A stretch of DNA of 42,926 nt, from assembly GCA_003222385.1 (NCBI GenBank), contig QHVV01000005.1, positions 1 to 42,926 on the forward strand, written 5' to 3'. Made by a program: the position numbers and the translations under genes. The notes below the pieces were generated by a model. It was given only the letters and a program-made list of their open reading frames with translations. It had not been told where the DNA came from and searched no databases. Positions 11,940 to 23,064 of the stretch are shown here, in pieces. Within the stretch, counting starts at the first letter, position 1. Every line of letters begins with the position of its first letter. The DNA comes from Acidobacteriota bacterium. Its GTDB lineage: Bacteria > Acidobacteriota > Thermoanaerobaculia > UBA5066 > Gp7-AA6.

Positions 11940-12700
11940 GCCTTTTTGGTCAGGCGGGCGACGAGAGCTTCGATCCGACGCCGCGCGTCGTCGGCGAACC
12001 AGAAGTCGAGGAAGGGATCCTCCGCACCCGCTCGATCGAAGCGGGCGAGCGTCTCCGCCCTCGCCCGACGCTTGATTTCGGCGTAGGCGGCGCGCGAGCG
12101 GCCGGCGAGCTGCCGGGCTCGGTCGAGGGAGGCTTCGAGGAGATCCGCCGCGGGGACGACGCGGTCGAGGAGTCCCGACTCGAGGGCCTGCATCCCGGAG
12201 ACGTTGTCCCCCGCGGCCGCCAGCCGCTCCGCGCCGCGGTCGCCCAGGAGGTGCCGGAAGATCTCGTATGCCGCGCGGGGGATCGGCACCCCGAGCGCGA
12301 CCTCCGACAGCCCGAACTCCCCGTTGCCTTCGGCCGCGATCCGTTCGTCGGCGGCGGACGCCAGGATCAGACCGCCCGCGATCGCGTGGCCCGGAAGCGC
12401 GGCGACGAGAGGCCCTTCGAACGTGAAGAGCTCGCGCAGGAGCGCGGTGAACTCGGCGAGGAACCGCTCCATCTCGGAGCGGCCGAAGCCGCTCACGATC
12501 GGAAGATCCCATCCCGCCGAGAAGATCGTTTGCGACGACGACGTCAGAACGAGGGCGCGCGCCCCGGCGTGCCCGGCGAGCGCGGCGCGCAGCTCCGCGA
12601 CCAGGACGGGCCCGATCGCGTTCGCACGAGGACGGTCGAGCGTCACGAGCGCGACGCCGCCGTCGCGGCTCTCGGACCGGACCGTTGCCGTCGCGCTCAG
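11936..12700 (-). CDS. Enoyl-CoA hydratase/isomerase (crotonase) family protein
   Basis: About 254 aa with the crotonase fold: VALVTLDRPRANAIG at the N-terminus, an oxyanion-hole segment (SAGWDLP), and GHAIAGGLILASAADERIA followed by FGLSEVALGVPIP. The usual GGxE is GGLIL here, so the first catalytic Glu of true hydratases is missing. The Glu in GLSEV is kept, which points to another crotonase activity such as isomerase or hydrolase. The start is uncertain: CTG at 12700 overlaps the pdxT stop as CTGA, matching the four-base overlaps of the neighbours, and no ATG or GTG lies upstream of the conserved core. It sits between pdxT and the NAT-like gene. Confidence 0.82.
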   Translation of the reverse strand: MSATATVRSESRDGGVALVTLDRPRANAIGPVLVAELRAALAGHAGARALVLTSSSQTIFSAGWDLPIVSGFGRSEMERFLAEFTALLRELFTFEGPLVAALPGHAIAGGLILASAADERIAAEGNGEFGLSEVALGVPIPRAAYEIFRHLLGDRGAERLAAAGDNVSGMQALESGLLDRVVPAADLLEASLDRARQLAGRSRAAYAEIKRRARAETLARFDRAGAEDPFLDFWFADDARRRIEALVARLTKKA

Positions 12701-13284
12701 GCCGTCCTCTGCGCGAGGCGGCGCGCTCCGAACGCGAGCTCGTGCACGGTCGTATCCGACGTCAGCTCCGGATGGAACGTCGCGGCGAAGACGTTCTCCT
12801 GCCGGACGAGCACGGGTTCTCCCCCGCGGGTCGCGAGCACCTCGACGCCCGGCCCGACGCGGCGGATCCTGGGCGCGCGGATGAACACGGCCGGAAGGGT
12901 TTTGCCGAATTCCGGCGCGTCGACCTCGCCCACGAACGAGTCGATCTGGCGGCCGTACGCGTTCCGCTCGACGGTGACATCGAGCAGACCCATCCCCTTC
13001 TGCGACGGGTGGGTGACCTCGCGGGCGAGCACGATCGCGCCGGCACACGTGCCGAGCACCGGCCGCCCGGTCGCCGCGAACCGCCGGATCGCGTCCTCCC
13101 ACGGCGCCGATTCGAAGAACTTCCAGAGGGTCGTCGACTCGCCGCCCGGAACGACGAGCCCGGCCGCGCGCTCGAGCTGCTCCGGCTTGCGAGCCTCGAA
13201 GGAGTCGAGCCCGATCTCGCGCAGCCGCCGGCCGTGCGCCGCGAAGTCGCCCTGCAGAGCGAGGACGGCGATCTTTCCGTTCAC
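12697..13284 (-). CDS. pdxT: Pyridoxal 5'-phosphate synthase glutaminase subunit PdxT
   Basis: A 195-aa class I glutamine amidotransferase that makes ammonia from glutamine for PdxS. It has [21 protein letters not shown], the nucleophile C80 in [10 protein letters not shown] and the His-Glu pair in [12 protein letters not shown], all as in YaaE/PdxT. The GTG start at 13284 overlaps the pdxS TGA (GTGA), giving the tight coupling expected for a 12:12 complex. Length matches the family. Confidence 0.97.
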
Positions 13285-14171
13285 CAGCCTCTCCCCTGCA
13301 TCCGCGCTTCCTCCGGCAGGCTCGCCGCCTCGATCCCTTTCATTCCGGTGCCGAGAGACTCCTCGGCCTCCACGAGCGCGTGCGCGTCCTGCCAGTGCGT
13401 CGTCGCCTTCACGATGGCGCGCGCGCGAAGGGCGGGATCGTCCGATTTGAAAATCCCGGAGCCGACGAAGATCGCCTCGGCGCCGAGCATCATGCACAGC
13501 GCGGCGTCGGCCGGCGTCGCGACCCCGCCCGCGGCGAAGTTCGGCACCGGCATCCGGCCGCTCTCGGCGACCTCCTCCACGAGCTCGAACGGCGCGGCCA
13601 GGCGCTTCGCTTCGCGCATCCGCTCGTCCCTGCTCATCAGGGTCAGGTTGCGGATGTCGCGATGGACTTCCCGAAGGTGTTTGACGGCGTGGACGATGTC
13701 GCCGGTGCCCGCCTCCCCTTTCGTCCGGATCATCGCGGCGCCTTCGCCGATCCGGCGCAGCGCCTCTCCCAGGTTCCGGCAGCCGCACACGAACGGCACC
13801 GTGAAATCGTGCTTGTAGACGTGGTTCTCCTCGTCGGCCGGCGTCAGGACCTCCGACTCGTCGATGAAGTCCACCTTCAGCGCCTCCAGGATCCGCGCCT
13901 CCGCCGAATGCCCGATCCGGCACTTCGCCATGACGGGGATCGAGACGGCCTCCTGAATCTCGCGGATCTTCGCGACCGGCGACATCCTTGCGACTCCCCC
14001 GTCCCGCCGGATGTCCGCCGGGACGCGCTCGAGCGCCATGACGGCCGCCGCACCGGCGGTTTCGGCGATGCGCGCCTGCTCCGCGTTGACGACGTCCATG
14101 ATGACGCCGCCCTTCAGCATCTCCGCGAGCCCCACCTTGACCCGATACGAATCGGAATCGCTTCGCTTCAT
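13281..14171 (-). CDS. pdxS: Pyridoxal 5'-phosphate synthase subunit PdxS
   Basis: A 296-aa TIM-barrel synthase that builds PLP from ribose 5-phosphate, glyceraldehyde 3-phosphate and PdxT-derived ammonia (the DXP-independent route). Key residues are D26 in [13 protein letters not shown], the Schiff-base lysine K83 in [11 protein letters not shown], the second active-site lysine in [12 protein letters not shown], and the phosphate loop [15 protein letters not shown] strong GGAGGAAAGG precedes the ATG. It starts 15 bp after the regulator gene on the same strand, so the two are probably co-transcribed. Confidence 0.98.
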
Positions 14172-14186
14172 GACCTTTCCTCCAAT

Positions 14187-15640
14187 TCAGACGACCGGCG
14201 CGGACTCGAGGACCGAGGCCCTCGCGCGCGTTTCTCGAACTGCTTCGGCGAGGAGAGCGACGCCGCGCTCGATCGATTCCCGCTCGACGCGGGAGACCGA
14301 GAGCCGCAGAGCTCCCCGATCTTCACCCTCTGGATCGAAGTCCGCTCCGGCCGACACCGCGACGCCCCGGGCCGCGGCGGCCTCCGCGACTCTCCGGCCG
14401 GACACTCCGGGCGGCAGGATCAGCCAGAAGATCGCGCTGCCCGGCCGCCCCGCCAGGAGAGATCCGGCAGATGTCTCCCGCGCGCGCCCGACATCTCTTT
14501 GCGCCGCGTCTCGACCTCGCTCGCCCTCGCGCGACGCGCTTCGCGGTCGAGGCCGGCGCGCAGGAACGACGCGATCGCGGCCTGCAGCGGGAGCGGAGTC
14601 TGGAAGTCGGCCGTGCGCTTGACGAGCGCGAGGCGCTCCACCACGGGTCGCGGCGCCGCGAGCCACCCGATCCGGAAGCCGGGCACGAGGTCCTTGGAAA
14701 GCGTGCCGAGCCAGACGACCTGTTCCGGCGCCCGCGCCGCGAGCGGAGTCAACCCGGACTCCGGCTCCTCGTAGCCGTCTTCGATCACGAGCGCGCCGGC
14801 GTCGATCGCGGCTTCCAGAATCTCCCGGCGCTTCTCCTCGGTGGCGGTGACGCCGGTCGGGTTCTGCCGCTCGGGCATGACGTAGACCACCTTCACGCGG
14901 CGCCCGCGCAAACCGGTGACGTCCGGGCCGTCCGGCGTCATCGGCATCGGGACGATCTCGACGCCCGCGAAACGCGCGAGCGCGAGCGCGCCCGGGTACG
15001 ACGGCGACTCCATCGCCACCGGATCGCGCGCGTCGGTGAACGTCCGGAAGACGAGGTCGAGTCCCTGCTGCGCCCCGCTGGTCACCAGGATCTCTTCGGG
15101 CGAGCGGGTCACGCCGCTCTCCGCCAGGCGGCGGGAGATCTCGACGCGGAGCTCGTCTAAGCCGAGCGGTGGAGCGTACTGCCACAGCTCGGGCCGCCGG
15201 CTCCAGGCTTCGGTCAGAGTCTGGGTGAAGCGCTCGAGCGGGAAAAATCTCTCGTCGGGAGTCAGCCGCGAGAAATCGGCGATCATCGGAGCGGAAACCG
15301 GCGGGGGAGCCGCGGCCGGGATCGCGGACGCCCGGCGCGAAACGAGCTCCGATGCATCGAAGCGCTTCGGGCGCCGCGCGTCGGCGCGGACGACGGTCCC
15401 GCTGCCGACGCGAGTCGAAGCGAAGCCCTCGTCTCGAAGGCGGCGATATGCAGCCTGGACGCTGCCGCGGTTGACTGCGAGCGCGCCCGCGACCTCCCGC
15501 GTCGTGGGAAGCCGCGCGCCAGCCGGGAAGAGACCGGTCTCGATGCGGGCAGCGAACGCCGCGAAGAGCTGCTCGGAGAGCGGCTCCCGGGAAGCGCGAT
15601 CGAGCGTCATCGACGTGATCTGATCCAATTGGTCTGCCAC
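14187..15640 (-). CDS. pdxR: MocR/PdxR-type regulator: GntR winged helix fused to aminotransferase domain (frameshifted)
   Basis: The N-terminal GntR helix-turn-helix (about 17-85, including RLPTTREVAGALAVNRGSV) is joined to a fold-type I aminotransferase domain. PLP-contact motifs are SGAQQGLDLV, NPTG, IEDGYEEP and the PLP lysine K316 in LGTLSKDLVPGFRIGW. The frame breaks around 14470-14490 in a GGGCGCGCGCGGG run. Past it another frame continues the family C-terminus (GSAIFWLILPPGVSG ... ALRLSVSR) to 14187. The total is one base short of a multiple of three, which fits one missing base. Position next to pdxST makes it a PdxR-like PLP sensor; the symbol is inferred from context. The GTG at 15640 fits a leaderless transcript; ATG 15610 is the alternative. 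Confidence 0.85.
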
Positions 15641-15651
15641 CGCGCCAATTG
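15625..15651 (-). promoter_or_regulatory. Candidate autoregulatory operator: two CCAATTG repeats
   Basis: CCAATTG occurs at 15625-15631 and 15645-15651, 20 bp apart (about two helical turns). The upstream copy overlaps the -10 element and the other lies just inside the coding start. Paired repeats at this spacing suit a dimeric MocR regulator. The binding role is inferred. Confidence 0.45.
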
Positions 15652-15677
15652 TATCGGTCCGTGCCGACCCGACTCAA
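15648..15677 (-). promoter_or_regulatory. Candidate promoter of the pdx operon
   Basis: On the minus strand TTGAGT (15677-15672), an 18-bp spacer and TACAAT (15653-15648) precede the GTG at 15640 by 7 bases, predicting a leaderless mRNA. Confidence 0.5.
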
Positions 15678-15790: not shown

Positions 15791-16057
15791 TCAAGCACCG
15801 TGTTTCCTCAGCTCGTCGTCGAGGTTCCGGACGAAGAGGAATTCTTCGTCGCGACGCGAAACGTTCTTGCGCTTCGCGAGCGCGGTGCGAACCTTCTCCT
15901 CCATCGCGTCGAGCTCCTTGTACGCCTCCGTCAGGTCCCGCACGATCGCCCGGCGCACCGTTTCGTCGTCCGCCTTCTGAACGAGGTTCAGGTTGTCCTT
16001 CAGCTTCTTCGCGATGATGCGCGAAAGGTAGAGAACGCGGTCAGGCGAAGGCTTCAT
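15791..16057 (-). CDS. DUF507 family protein
   Basis: An 88-aa charged protein (MKPSPDRVLYLSRIIAKKL ... FVRNLDDELRKHGA). Its length, the 'RVLYLSRIIAKKL' opening and its helical, Lys/Glu-rich make-up match DUF507, a small family of unknown function known from acidobacteria, deltaproteobacteria and Aquificae. The ATG overlaps the stop of the transaldolase-like gene (ATGA), so the two are translationally coupled. There is no signal peptide or membrane segment. Confidence 0.82.
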   Translation of the reverse strand: MKPSPDRVLYLSRIIAKKLKDNLNLVQKADDETVRRAIVRDLTEAYKELDAMEEKVRTALAKRKNVSRRDEEFLFVRNLDDELRKHGA

Positions 16058-16677
16058 CTCTCTCGTCCGGCGAGGAGCTCGTCGGAGAGCGGATGGCGGA
16101 AGAGCTGCTCGATGACGGCCGTCGAAATCGCCGCGACGTCGGCGCCCATCAGCGCCGCGTCGAGCACGTGGATCGGGTTGCGCAGCTCCGCGACCACGAT
16201 CTGCGTCTGGAAGCCGTAGTTGTCGTACACGCGGATGATCTGCTCGACTAAATCCATGCCGATCGAGCCGACGTCGTCGAGCGCACCCACGGCCGGAGCG
16301 ACGTAGCTGACGTTCGATTTCGCCGCGATCAGCGCCTGCGCCGCGGAGTAACAGCCGGCGGCGCACACGGCGACCTGGTCCTGCGCGAGCAGCCGGGCGA
16401 CCCGCATGGCCTCGGGCTGCGCCGGAAGCTGCACGACGATGTCCTTCCCGAGCTTCGCGAGCTCGCGCGCCTCCTTGTACATGCCCTTCGCGTCGGTCGA
16501 GACCGGGCCGACGCAGACCGGACCGTCGGTCAGCGAAGAGAGCTCGCGGGCGGCGCGGCGATAGTCGACTCCGGCCTTCTCCGCGGCGGCCGCCGAGAGC
16601 CAGACGCCGTCGAGAAGGCCCCATTCGCGCACCTTTTTCGCCTCGTCGGCGACGGCGCTCTCGAGAAAAAACCGCAT
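16054..16677 (-). CDS. Transaldolase/fructose-6-phosphate aldolase-like protein lacking catalytic residues
   Basis: A 207-aa protein that aligns by eye along its length with small transaldolases (TalC/FSA): GLLDGV, GMYKEARELAKLGKDIVV, YVAPAVGALDDVGS, VYDNYGFQTQIVVAELRNP and HVLDAALMGADVAA. The Schiff-base lysine (K85 in E. coli FsaA, 'VVKVP') is Q83 here (IVVQLPAQ). The TTNPS substrate loop is WLSAA, and the first catalytic Asp of 'LDT' is Glu (FFLES). It is therefore probably not an aldolase of the usual mechanism and may have been recruited for binding or regulation. It is coupled to DUF507. A -10-like TAGAAT (16695-16690) 12 bases ahead of the ATG suggests a very short leader. Confidence 0.8.
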   Translation of the reverse strand: MRFFLESAVADEAKKVREWGLLDGVWLSAAAAEKAGVDYRRAARELSSLTDGPVCVGPVSTDAKGMYKEARELAKLGKDIVVQLPAQPEAMRVARLLAQDQVAVCAAGCYSAAQALIAAKSNVSYVAPAVGALDDVGSIGMDLVEQIIRVYDNYGFQTQIVVAELRNPIHVLDAALMGADVAAISTAVIEQLFRHPLSDELLAGRER

Positions 16678-16698
16678 GGGTGGCGCGGGATTCTATCC

Positions 16699-16770
16699 GG
16701 GGACAGACCCCGATTTTGACTCGTCTCTCGCGGAGAGAATCGCCCGAGAGCAAAATTGGGGTCTGTCCCC
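16699..16770. repeat. GGGGACAG-type inverted repeat C (REP-like)
   Basis: 20-bp arms (16699-16718 and 16751-16770; GGGGACAGACCCC at the outer end) with one mismatch surround a 32-nt core holding its own TCTCTC/GAGAGA hairpin. It lies between gyrA and the transaldolase-like gene. Confidence 0.8.
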
Positions 16771-16780
16771 TATTTAACGG

Positions 16781-19404
16781 CTATTCCTCGTCTTCCAAGA
16801 ACGGCGTCGACTCGCCTGCCCCTTTGGGTCTCGGACCCTGAGTCCCGCCGTCCGGCGCATCCGGCACCGGCAGTGTAGCCTGCGGCTCTTCGTCTCCGTC
16901 CTCCGGCTCGGCGAGCTTCGCGACCGCGACGACGGAGTCGCCCTCCTCCAGGTTGATCAGCTTGACGCCCTGCGCGGCGCGGCCGGTCTCCCGGATGTCC
17001 CTGACCTTGATCCGGATGAGCATCCCGCTCTGCGTGATCAGGAGGAGCTGGTCGGCGTCGGTGACCGACTTGATTCCGGCGACTGGACCGTTCTTTTCGG
17101 TGACTCTGATGTTGATGACGCCGGAGCCGCCGCGCGCCTGGAAGCGGTACTCGGACGCCTCGGATCTCTTGCCGTACCCCTTCTCGGTGACCGTGAGGAG
17201 GTGGCCGTGCTCTTCGACCACTTCCATCTCGACGACGTAGTCCCCCTCTTTCTTCAGGTCGATTCCCCAGACGCCGGTCGTGTCGCGTCCCGTGGAACGG
17301 ACGTCCTTCTCGGCGAATCGGATGCCCTGGCCGAGATGCGTGCCGATGAAGATCTGCCGGGTTCCGTCTGTGACGCGAACCGAAAGGAGCTCGTCCCCCT
17401 TCTCGATGTTGATCGCGATGATGCCCCCGGATCGGACGTTCGAGTACGCCGAGAGAGCCGTTTTCTTGACGAGCCCCTGCTTGGTCGCGAACACGAGGAA
17501 CCGGTCTTCCGGGAAATCCTTCGTCGAAGCCAGCGCGACGACACGCTCGTTTGGGTCGAGGTTCAGCAGGTTGACGATCGCCTTGCCGCGCGTGGCGGGA
17601 CCGAGCTGCGGGACCTCGTAGACCTTGATCCAGTGCATCCGGCCGCGCGAGGTGAACGCGAGGATGTACGCGTGCGTCGAGGCGACGAAGAGATGCTCGA
17701 CGACGTCCTCTTCCTTGCCTTGCCGCCGCGGCGTTGCGCTCGATAGAGCGACAGGGGAGAGCGCTTGATGTAACCGCCTCGGGAGACCGTGATCACCATG
17801 TCCTCTTCGACGATCAGGTCCTCGATGTCGATGTCGGAGGCTTCGGCGACGATCTCCGTGCGCCGTTCGTCGCCGAACTGCTTCTTCACCTCGGAGAGCT
17901 CGTCGACGATGATGTCGAGGACGAGCTTCTCGGAGCCGAGGATCTCGCGCAGCTTCGCGATCAGGGTCAGGACTTCCTTGAATTCGGCGACGATCTTTTC
18001 CCGCTCGAGGCCGGTCAGCCGCTGCAAGCGCATCTCGAGAATCGCCTGGGCCTGGACGTCGTCGAGGCGGACGATCTCCTCTTTCTTCCCCTTCGCCGGC
18101 TCGGGAAGCTTCATTCCGGTGAACTTCTCGAGTCCGGCGCGGCTCATCGAGATCTCCGCGATCAACCGCTCCTTCGCTTCTTTCGGATCCTTCGACGCGC
18201 GAATGATCTTGATCACGAGTTCGATGTTCGCCAGCGCGAGCGCCAGGCCGCGCAGGAGGTGGGCGCGCTCCTCCGCCTTCTTGAGGTCGAACTGGGTGCG
18301 CCGGATGACGACCGCCTGGCGATGGTCGATGAAGTACCGGAGCAGATCGACGAGCGGCAGGACCTTCGGCTGGTTGTCGACGATCGCGAGGAAGATGATC
18401 CCGAAAGTCGACTGCATCGGGGTGAGCGCGTAGAGCTGGTTCAGCACGACCTGGGCGTTCTCGCCGCGCTTCAGCTCGACCACGACGCGGATTCCCTCGC
18501 GGCTCGTCTCGTCGCGGAGATCCGCGATGCCTTCGATCTTCTTGTCGTTGACGAGCTCCGCGATCCGCTCGACCAGCTTCGCTTTGTTGACCTGGTAAGG
18601 GATCTCGGTGATGACGATCGACTCCTTTTCGCCGCGCGCCGCTTTCTCGATCTGGGCGCGCGCGCGGACCTGCACGATTCCGCGGCCGGTCTTGTAGGCC
18701 TCGCGGATTCCGTCGGCGCCGTGGATGAAAGCGGCGGTGGGGAAGTCGGGGCCCGGCAGCTTGCGCATCAGCTGCCCGAGCGACGCGTCGGGCCGCCGAA
18801 TGAGCTCGATCGTCGCATCGACGACCTCGCCCAGGTTGTGCGGAGGGATGTTGGTCGCCATGCCGACCGCGATTCCGGTCGAGCCGTTGACGAGTAGGTT
18901 CGGAAACTTCGACGGAAGGACCGTCGGCTCCCGGGTGGATCCGTCATAGTTGGGGACCCAATCCACCGTTTCCTTGTCGATGTCGTCGCCGAGCAGCTCC
19001 GCGGCGACCCGCGTCAGACGGATCTCGGTGTACCGCATCGCCGCCGCGCTGTCGCCGTCGATCGACCCGAAGTTGCCCTGACCGTCGACGAGCGGGTAAC
19101 GCATGGAGAAGTCCTGCGCCATGCGAACGATCGTGTCGTAGACCGGGGCCTCTCCGTGCGGGTGATAGTTGCCGAGCACGTACCCGACGGTCCGCGCGGA
19201 TTTCTTGTGCGGCTTGTTGTGGAGATTCCCCTGCTCCCACATGCCGTAGAGGGAGCGGCGGTGGACCGGCTTCAGGCCGTCGCGCACGTCGGGGAGAGCG
19301 CGGCCGATGATGACCGACATCGCGTAGTCGAGGTAGGACCGGCGGACTTCCTCCTCGATCGTGACGGGGATGCGTTCTTCGGGGGTTAAGAGGTTGCTGC
19401 TCAT
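16781..19404 (-). CDS. gyrA: DNA gyrase subunit A (single-base frameshift in this sequence)
   Basis: The cleavage subunit of gyrase; the intact protein would be about 874 aa. The winged-helix region holds the catalytic Y125 in [12 protein letters not shown]; the GyrA box QRRGGK marks it as gyrase rather than topoisomerase IV. Reading from ATG 19404 the frame leaves the family right after QRRGGKA near 17724. A second frame resumes with [20 protein letters not shown] and runs to 16781 with the beta-pinwheel and an acidic tail. The length is one base short, consistent with GGCAAGG having lost a G. Because the gene is essential, an assembly error is likely. The quinolone-determining segment is [10 protein letters not shown]. 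It follows gyrB by 86 bp. Confidence 0.96.

Positions 19405-19490: not shown

Positions 19491-23064
<3,574 letters not shown>

Follow-up and report, generated by a model that had tools for sequence, protein, structure and literature searches.

The window analysed here, a stretch of DNA of 42,926 nucleotides, carries on its minus strand a cluster in which gyrB and gyrA are followed by a gene for a transaldolase-like (beta/alpha)8 barrel and by a gene for a small DUF507-like protein (Table 1). The barrel gene runs from an ATG at 16677 to a TGA at 16054; the plus strand of 16054..16677 does not hold it. Its position right behind gyrA, as described in the initial annotation, was confirmed with a spacing of 103 nt (16678..16780). 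The inverted repeat located in this spacer (arms GGGGTCTGTCCCC) looks like a small dispersed repeat or a hairpin, its 13-mer occurring seven times in the 3.6 Mb assembly, with two close pairs, against none for the reversed control. The gyrA gene (19404..16781) is split into two frames in this assembly, the frameshift falling at the hinge that joins the topoisomerase portion to the C-terminal propeller (17500..17800, minus strand), and it is a single frame in the three nearest relatives read. Since gyrA is essential and the assembly is a draft, the split is more readily explained by an error of sequencing or assembly than by biology. Beyond the DUF507-like gene, the region 12697..15677 (minus strand) holds a GntR/aminotransferase (MocR-type) regulator, pdxS, and a gene presumed to be pdxT-like.

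Table 1. Coordinates of the features of the gyrase locus in the window.
Feature	Positions	Strand	Basis
DUF507-like protein, 88 aa; start overlaps barrel stop (ATGA, 4 nt)	15791..16057	-	ORF, profile, model
Putative pseudo-transaldolase (TalC/FSA-type barrel), 207 aa	16054..16677	-	ORF, profiles, alignment, model
Codon 83 (CAG, Gln), Schiff-base lysine site	16429..16431	-	ortholog comparison
Residues 62-78, helix 3 and following loop; K64, Y67, K68, R71, E72, K75, G77 and K78 each 17/17	16444..16494	-	ortholog comparison and model
Residues 26-30 (WLSAA), site of lost TTNPS loop	16588..16602	-	ortholog comparison
Codon 6, Glu where 95/95 outside the order have Asp	16660..16662	-	coordinates computed from start codon
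Inverted repeat between gyrA and barrel gene (two 20-nt arms, 95% complementarity, 32-nt spacer)	16699..16770		
gyrA C-terminal part, separate frame in this assembly	16781..17638	-	ORF
gyrA N-terminal part	17563..19404	-	ORF
gyrB	19491..21911	-	ORF

The proposal that this interval encodes a TalC/FSA-type protein was borne out, on the minus strand, by two profiles and by alignment. The window protein scored 101 bits (E 9e-29) against Pfam PF00923 (TAL_FSA), above the curated cut-off of 27, and 183.7 bits over residues 1-200 against NCBIfam TIGR00875, below that model's cut-off of 245.95 and thus short of an equivalog assignment. It aligned without gaps over residues 1-199 with the Thermotoga maritima transaldolase 1vpx (E 1e-51). 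An AlphaFold2 model built with 112 aligned sequences reached a pLDDT of 94.2 and was superposed on 1vpx with all 207 residues aligned (Z 33.5, rmsd 1.6, 38% identity); further transaldolase matches included 3r8r (Z 32.9) and Escherichia coli FSA 1l6w (Z 29.4). In the order to which the window's genome belongs, the tails of the barrel differ from those of TalC/FSA proteins: in family f1 (labels such as f1 and f2 are codes from the genome search) the protein has 207-209 aa and a shorter C-terminal tail, and 12 of the 13 f2 members terminate in GPRR(I/V/L)H, the remaining one in GTRRVH, a tail absent from the class members compared. The FSA/TalC enzymes are characterised by a decamer with helix swapping.

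According to PMC13259622, mutation of Lys85 abolishes the activity of E. coli FSA, and roles are assigned to Gln59, Lys85, Thr109, Tyr131, Arg134, Ser166 and Lys168, in addition to Asp6 and Asn28. These numbers were transferred to the columns of the window protein by a shift of two after strand 3, which yields Glu57 (Gln59), Lys83 (Lys85), Thr107 (Thr109), Phe129 (Tyr131), Arg132 (Arg134), Ser164 (Ser166) and Arg166 (Lys168). Comparison was made between 17 orthologs of the order and 95 relatives outside it, the latter comprising 17 loci of the same class and 78 of the 80 loci kept from 171 relatives found (the remaining two are members of the order). Asp6, Asn28 and the seven shifted residues, together with Thr26 and Asn105, which we take to have active-site roles as well, are each present in 95/95 relatives outside the order. 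Within the order, T26, N28, E57, K83, N105, T107, F129, R132, S164 and R166 are altered in 13 to 17 of the 17 orthologs. The window protein has Glu, Trp, Ser, Gly, Gln and Cys at positions 6, 26, 28, 57, 83 and 105, and Ala, Ala, Ala, Glu and Arg at positions 107, 129, 132, 164 and 166. The reported replacement of the Schiff-base lysine by Gln (IVVQLP) therefore stands, Gln83 being encoded by CAG where the 95 relatives have Lys, and so do the loss of the TTNPS loop, replaced by LSAAA, and the exchange of the first Asp for Glu at position 6. The residues corresponding to Asn28 and to the phosphate-side Arg134 and Ser166 of FSA are also changed, Ser28, Ala132 and Glu164 standing where 95/95 relatives have Asn, Arg and Ser.

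The view of Gln as a conserved signature at the lysine site did not hold in the order, where 15 of 17 orthologs carry Arg at position 83, with Gln confined to the window protein and Lys to a single ortholog (L115, genome G006, family f3). This f3 protein retains E57, K83, N105, F129, R132, S164 and R166, and has E6, S26 and P28. In f1 and f2, N105, T107 and R132 are gone in 16/16 proteins, S164 in 15/16 and E57 in 14/16. Codon 83 reads AAG in f3, CGG in both f1 sisters and CAG in the window gene, a series that suggests a stepwise change. The initial annotation had treated a lysine at this site in sister genomes as a sign of recent decay. Such a lysine does occur in G006, along with much of the pocket; recent decay of a single gene is not supported, and the retention in G006 would instead mean that the order lost catalysis step by step and that the f3 protein might still be active. 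The mean entropy of 12 pocket columns of our own choosing was 1.50 in the order vs 0.90 for all columns and 0.00 in the 95 relatives outside, and random column sets reached a value as high in 53 of 20000 draws. In a scan of 396 genomes across the phylum, 283 had a match; the six matching genomes of the order scored 349-400 bits and the next best 247. Lys and TTNP were present in all 24 loci read from the other 277 matching genomes, three of them from class genomes already counted. Altogether, we strongly infer from these comparisons that the barrel protein has lost aldol chemistry.

A displaced lysine in the pocket was also considered. The window protein has eight lysines (14, 15, 34, 64, 68, 75, 78 and 120), none of them in a strand of the model. 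Only K64, which belongs to the first turn of helix 3, appears to start near the catalytic face. Position 64 is variable outside the order (E in 49, D in 20 and K in nine of 95, with others in the rest).

The reading frame of the barrel gene is intact in 17/17 orthologs of the order, whose identities average 63% and drop to 48%. With a simple Nei-Gojobori script, dN/dS was 0.05-0.14 in eight close f2 pairs and 0.03-0.15 in seven pairs of canonical genes, and 0.22-0.52 in four pairs with f1 or f3 members, in which synonymous changes are less reliable. In four close f2 pairs, the barrel values of 0.05, 0.05, 0.14 and 0.10 compare with 0.08, 0.09, 0.10 and 0.18 for the C-terminal part of GyrA (GyrA_C). 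In three f1 pairs the barrel gave 0.21-0.31, GyrA_C 0.12-0.27, GyrB 0.17-0.19 and the MocR-type regulator 0.39 (one pair); the pair formed by the window and f3 gave 0.54 for the barrel, 0.26 for GyrA_C and 0.35 for GyrB. By this measure the barrel gene is constrained throughout; in f2 the constraint resembles that on gyrase, and in f1 and f3 it is weaker. The combination of lost catalytic residues with a frame and a sequence under purifying selection is that expected of a pseudoenzyme.

In addition to the residues lost, the order has gained a set of its own. Twenty-eight columns are conserved in at least 16 of 17 orthologs and in less than 70% of the relatives outside, and half of them (14/28) fall within residues 62-103. 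Taking only the columns that vary in the relatives outside, conservation in at least 16/17 is now reached by 7 of the 10 located in residues 62-78 vs 14 of 70 elsewhere (Fisher p 0.003, a guide only, as this segment was chosen after the list was seen); helix 4 alone (residues 86-103) gave a gain of 3/8 that was not significant (p 0.35). As a yardstick, 17 canonical members of the class (mean identity 69%) showed 15 such columns against the 28 of the order, and lacked the helix-3 cluster. The net charge of residues 62-78 is +2 in all 17 orthologs vs a mean of -1.8 in the 95 relatives outside. The intact frames, the constraint, the drifting active site and the newly invariant columns together support the earlier suggestion that the fold is under selection for something besides aldol chemistry.

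Regarding the downstream gene, the 88-aa window protein scored 22.9 bits against Pfam PF04368, just under the cut-off of 24.7. A DUF507-like protein of 87-94 aa lies behind the barrel gene in 17/17 orthologous loci of the order, and the Pfam DUF507 profile matched all 17 proteins at E up to 1, with a best value of 2.2e-11. A six-frame search found DUF507 over the cut-off in 7/7 genomes of the order sampled, with one match in the window's genome, its location not given. In the order DUF507 is a single domain of 87-94 aa, whereas elsewhere in the phylum, among the matches listed, it mostly occurs as two tandem halves or one long gene. The best structural match of the model of the window protein was Aquifex aeolicus AaDUF507 (8t8k; 87 residues aligned, 21% identity), which is described in PMC10439177, at a Z of 6.6 that lies in the range of common helical arrangements. 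Histone-fold chains scored nearly as high, many of them at Z about 5-5.8; this resemblance of the model probably reflects just a shared short-long-short arrangement of helices, and a histone-fold reading is not claimed.

The initial annotation had described the barrel gene as translationally coupled to DUF507. The ATGA overlap is present in the window, but the spacing is -4 nt in only 7 of 17 loci (all four of f1 and f3, and three of f2) and 4 to 138 nt in the other ten, with starts assigned here, so coupling is not the conserved trait. The distance matrices of barrel and DUF507 correlated at 0.87, and at 0.62 after removing the GyrA_C signal; none of 2000 permutations came as high. However, control proteins behaved similarly (GyrB 0.74, n 13; MocR 0.76, n 14; the N-terminal part of GyrA, GyrA_N, 0.57, n 15; PdxS 0.59, n 12), and within f2 the correlation with the barrel was 0.65 for DUF507, 0.71 for GyrB, 0.67 for MocR, 0.53 for GyrA_N and 0.13 for PdxS. 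Against these four controls, the distance-matrix test gave no signal of specific co-evolution between barrel and DUF507, and this line of argument was dropped.

The arrangement gyrA-barrel-DUF507 was found in 17 of the 19 genomes of the order examined; in the other two, the contig of G004 starts inside DUF507 and G018 shows neither gene. In 17 loci of the class belonging to eight families (f4, f6, f8, f10, f12, f13, f15 and f17), gyrA is followed by a canonical enzyme, at a distance of about 1 kb from the GyrA match in L136, and the DUF507 profile of the order had no match in any of the 17 genomes. This profile matched 34 of 148 genomes: 18 of the order, 15 of 18 from f7, and one f10 genome (G146) with a weak hit. 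The search scored part of the first-look candidates (34 per genome in most), so that weak homologs could be missed. All 15 f7 loci read (L144-L158), from 15 of the 18 f7 genomes by their DUF507 match, carry DUF507 and gyrA on one contig; DUF507 comes immediately after gyrA in 13, and the two genes are some 2-2.5 kb apart in two. None of the 15 has a barrel gene behind gyrA; the tie of DUF507 to gyrA is thus independent of the barrel. Three f7 loci (L159, L160 and L161) showed a different short transaldolase-like gene with the lysine (VKIP), away from gyrA. The gyrA neighbourhoods read in the class come from the order, from f7 and from the eight families listed above. Outside the class, a canonical enzyme adjoins gyrA in four loci read (L199, L201, L205 and L211), and in none of the 16 DUF507 loci read from other parts of the phylum was gyrA close by. 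The expectation that DUF507 always follows the barrel holds within the order; DUF507 is not a constant companion beyond it, standing next to gyrA without the barrel in f7 and away from gyrA in those 16 loci. Among the loci read, a degenerate barrel accompanied by DUF507 occurs in this order alone.

In a tree built from 59 of the 112 barrel sequences, including 25 of the 78 non-order sequences from the search for relatives, the barrel genes of the order formed one clade (SH-aLRT 100). Placing this clade within the class by the same tree was abandoned because of the long branch leading to it (0.23 + 0.49); that it descends from the gene of the class itself is consequently supported by synteny only. 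A GyrA tree of 45 of 52 loci, from which L116, L125, L127, L199, L201, L205 and L211 were excluded for their short GyrA piece, placed f10 as the nearest neighbour of the order, followed by f7 (96 and 95, quick SH-aLRT only), a topology under which DUF507 would have been lost in f10 or gained twice.

A second transaldolase of the longer classical type, with TSNPT and NVMVKIPGT, is encoded on another contig (C129) of the window's genome. PF00923 matches besides the gyrA-linked gene were found in 17 of 19 genomes of the order (in pieces in G010 and partial in G018), their catalytic residues having been read for the window's genome only, and G014 and G017 have a single match each. Such redundancy may have freed the barrel gene to change. 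It does not force loss, since the f10 genomes G029, G056 and G142 have both kinds of transaldolase and the gyrA-linked ones of G029 and G056 are canonical. Further along the locus, the MocR-type regulator follows in 14 of 17 loci of the order and pdxS in 12 of 17, some contigs ending early, and pdxS is also present in 4 of 5 f10 loci. The genes for PLP synthesis are long-standing neighbours of this cluster; a functional link to PLP synthesis was set aside, as L128 has neither regulator nor pdxS in its 12.5 kb stretch.

We favour, with moderate confidence, the reading that the barrel is a pseudo-transaldolase kept as a protein-binding scaffold, which would act through its outer surface around helix 3 and have DUF507 as its most likely partner. 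The basis is one order with 17 sequences, mostly from fragmented genomes, and single-chain models. The ancestor would have been a transaldolase of the TalC type with its gene behind gyrBA, which sister families within the class still have in canonical form. It would have lost the TTNPS loop and, in f1 and f2, also the Schiff-base lysine and the phosphate pocket, with a second transaldolase in the genome. The fold would have been retained through a binding role gained by the outside of the protein, that is, by the helix-3 residues. The helix-3 surface may have preceded the loss of the lysine, since one f3 ortholog, from one genome, has both the helix-3 residues and Lys83. The barrel is thus probably a non-catalytic binding protein and, judging from gene linkage, its most plausible partner is DUF507, the small helical protein whose gene comes next and in some loci overlaps.

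The main rival, which we consider unlikely, is a re-purposed pocket that binds or converts another small molecule, as a sensor or as an enzyme. In this fold, ligands usually bind at the barrel mouth, and f2 has uniform new residues there (D6, R83, D105 and S127 in 13/13, Q166 in 12/13, R28 in 11/13). These residues differ by family, however, with C105 in f1 against D105 in f2 and E/D164 in f1 against G/A/S in f2. The mean entropy of the f2 pocket (0.85) exceeds its column mean (0.67), 16 of 17 orthologs lack the phosphate-side Arg132, and order-wide invariance is densest around helix 3 instead of the pocket. There is a smaller chance that the protein is still an aldolase or transaldolase, either through K64 as a displaced lysine or in part of the clade only. 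K64 is invariant in the order, on the side of the active-site opening, and the f3 protein combines Lys83 with most substrate residues. The variability of position 64 outside the order argues against an active-site column, the substrate residues are lost from f1 and f2 to the extent given above, and the window's genome has another transaldolase.

That the gene is dying within the gyrase operon, or serves only as a leader translated ahead of DUF507, is scarcely credible: the second transaldolase, the absence of the barrel behind gyrA in the f7 loci read and the DUF507 overlap would allow it, but the 17 intact frames, f2 dN/dS values near those of the gyrase genes and the gained invariant residues contradict a neutral remnant, and an overlap confined to a minority of loci does not suit a leader. 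That barrel and DUF507 bind GyrA or GyrB as accessory proteins and tune supercoiling is hardly more probable. The constant position behind gyrA in the order, the Lys/Arg-rich invariant face and the place of DUF507 behind gyrA in f7 would fit, yet canonical transaldolase genes are also found behind gyrA, so the neighbourhood predates the change, and a gyrase link beyond gene order is putative.

The TalC-type transaldolases and FSA (TIGR00875; 1vpx, 3s0c, 1l6w) share the whole-length barrel and, in the 17 class loci, the place behind gyrA; the window protein differs from them in lacking the Schiff-base Lys, TTNPS, Glu57, Asn105, Thr107, Arg132 and Ser164, and in its new invariant helix-3 residues. 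The plant protein PDX1.2 is a pseudoenzyme on a metabolic barrel. As in PDX1.2, catalytic residues are lost and the fold appears to be kept under selection; unlike in that case, no catalytic FSA-type paralog for co-assembly was found in the window's genome. The sulfofructose transaldolase BmSF-TAL (8bc2 and 8bc3; Z 30.0 and 29.7 against the window model) has the same fold with a changed substrate, but by its PDB titles (Schiff-base complex) it is a Schiff-base enzyme, whereas the window protein has no lysine at that site. No earlier description of an inactive transaldolase associated with DUF507 was found in the open-access literature searched.

A bolder version of the scaffold reading, which we regard as doubtful, is a gyrase-operon module in which the Lys/Arg-rich face binds the single-domain DUF507 and the complex acts on gyrase, DNA or the neighbouring PLP synthase. 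If true, it would give DUF507 a functional context, and a binding surface would have been gained before the catalytic lysine was lost. Automatic annotation may label these genes as transaldolases, although the window's genome has an intact transaldolase elsewhere. The scaffold reading offers a testable partner hypothesis for DUF507, whose function is given as unknown in PMC10439177 (2023). Furthermore, the locus would present a transition from enzyme to scaffold with its stages visible: canonical enzymes in the sister families, a lysine-bearing protein in f3, proteins with Arg or Gln at that site in the families f1 and f2, and gyrA followed by DUF507 without the barrel in f7.
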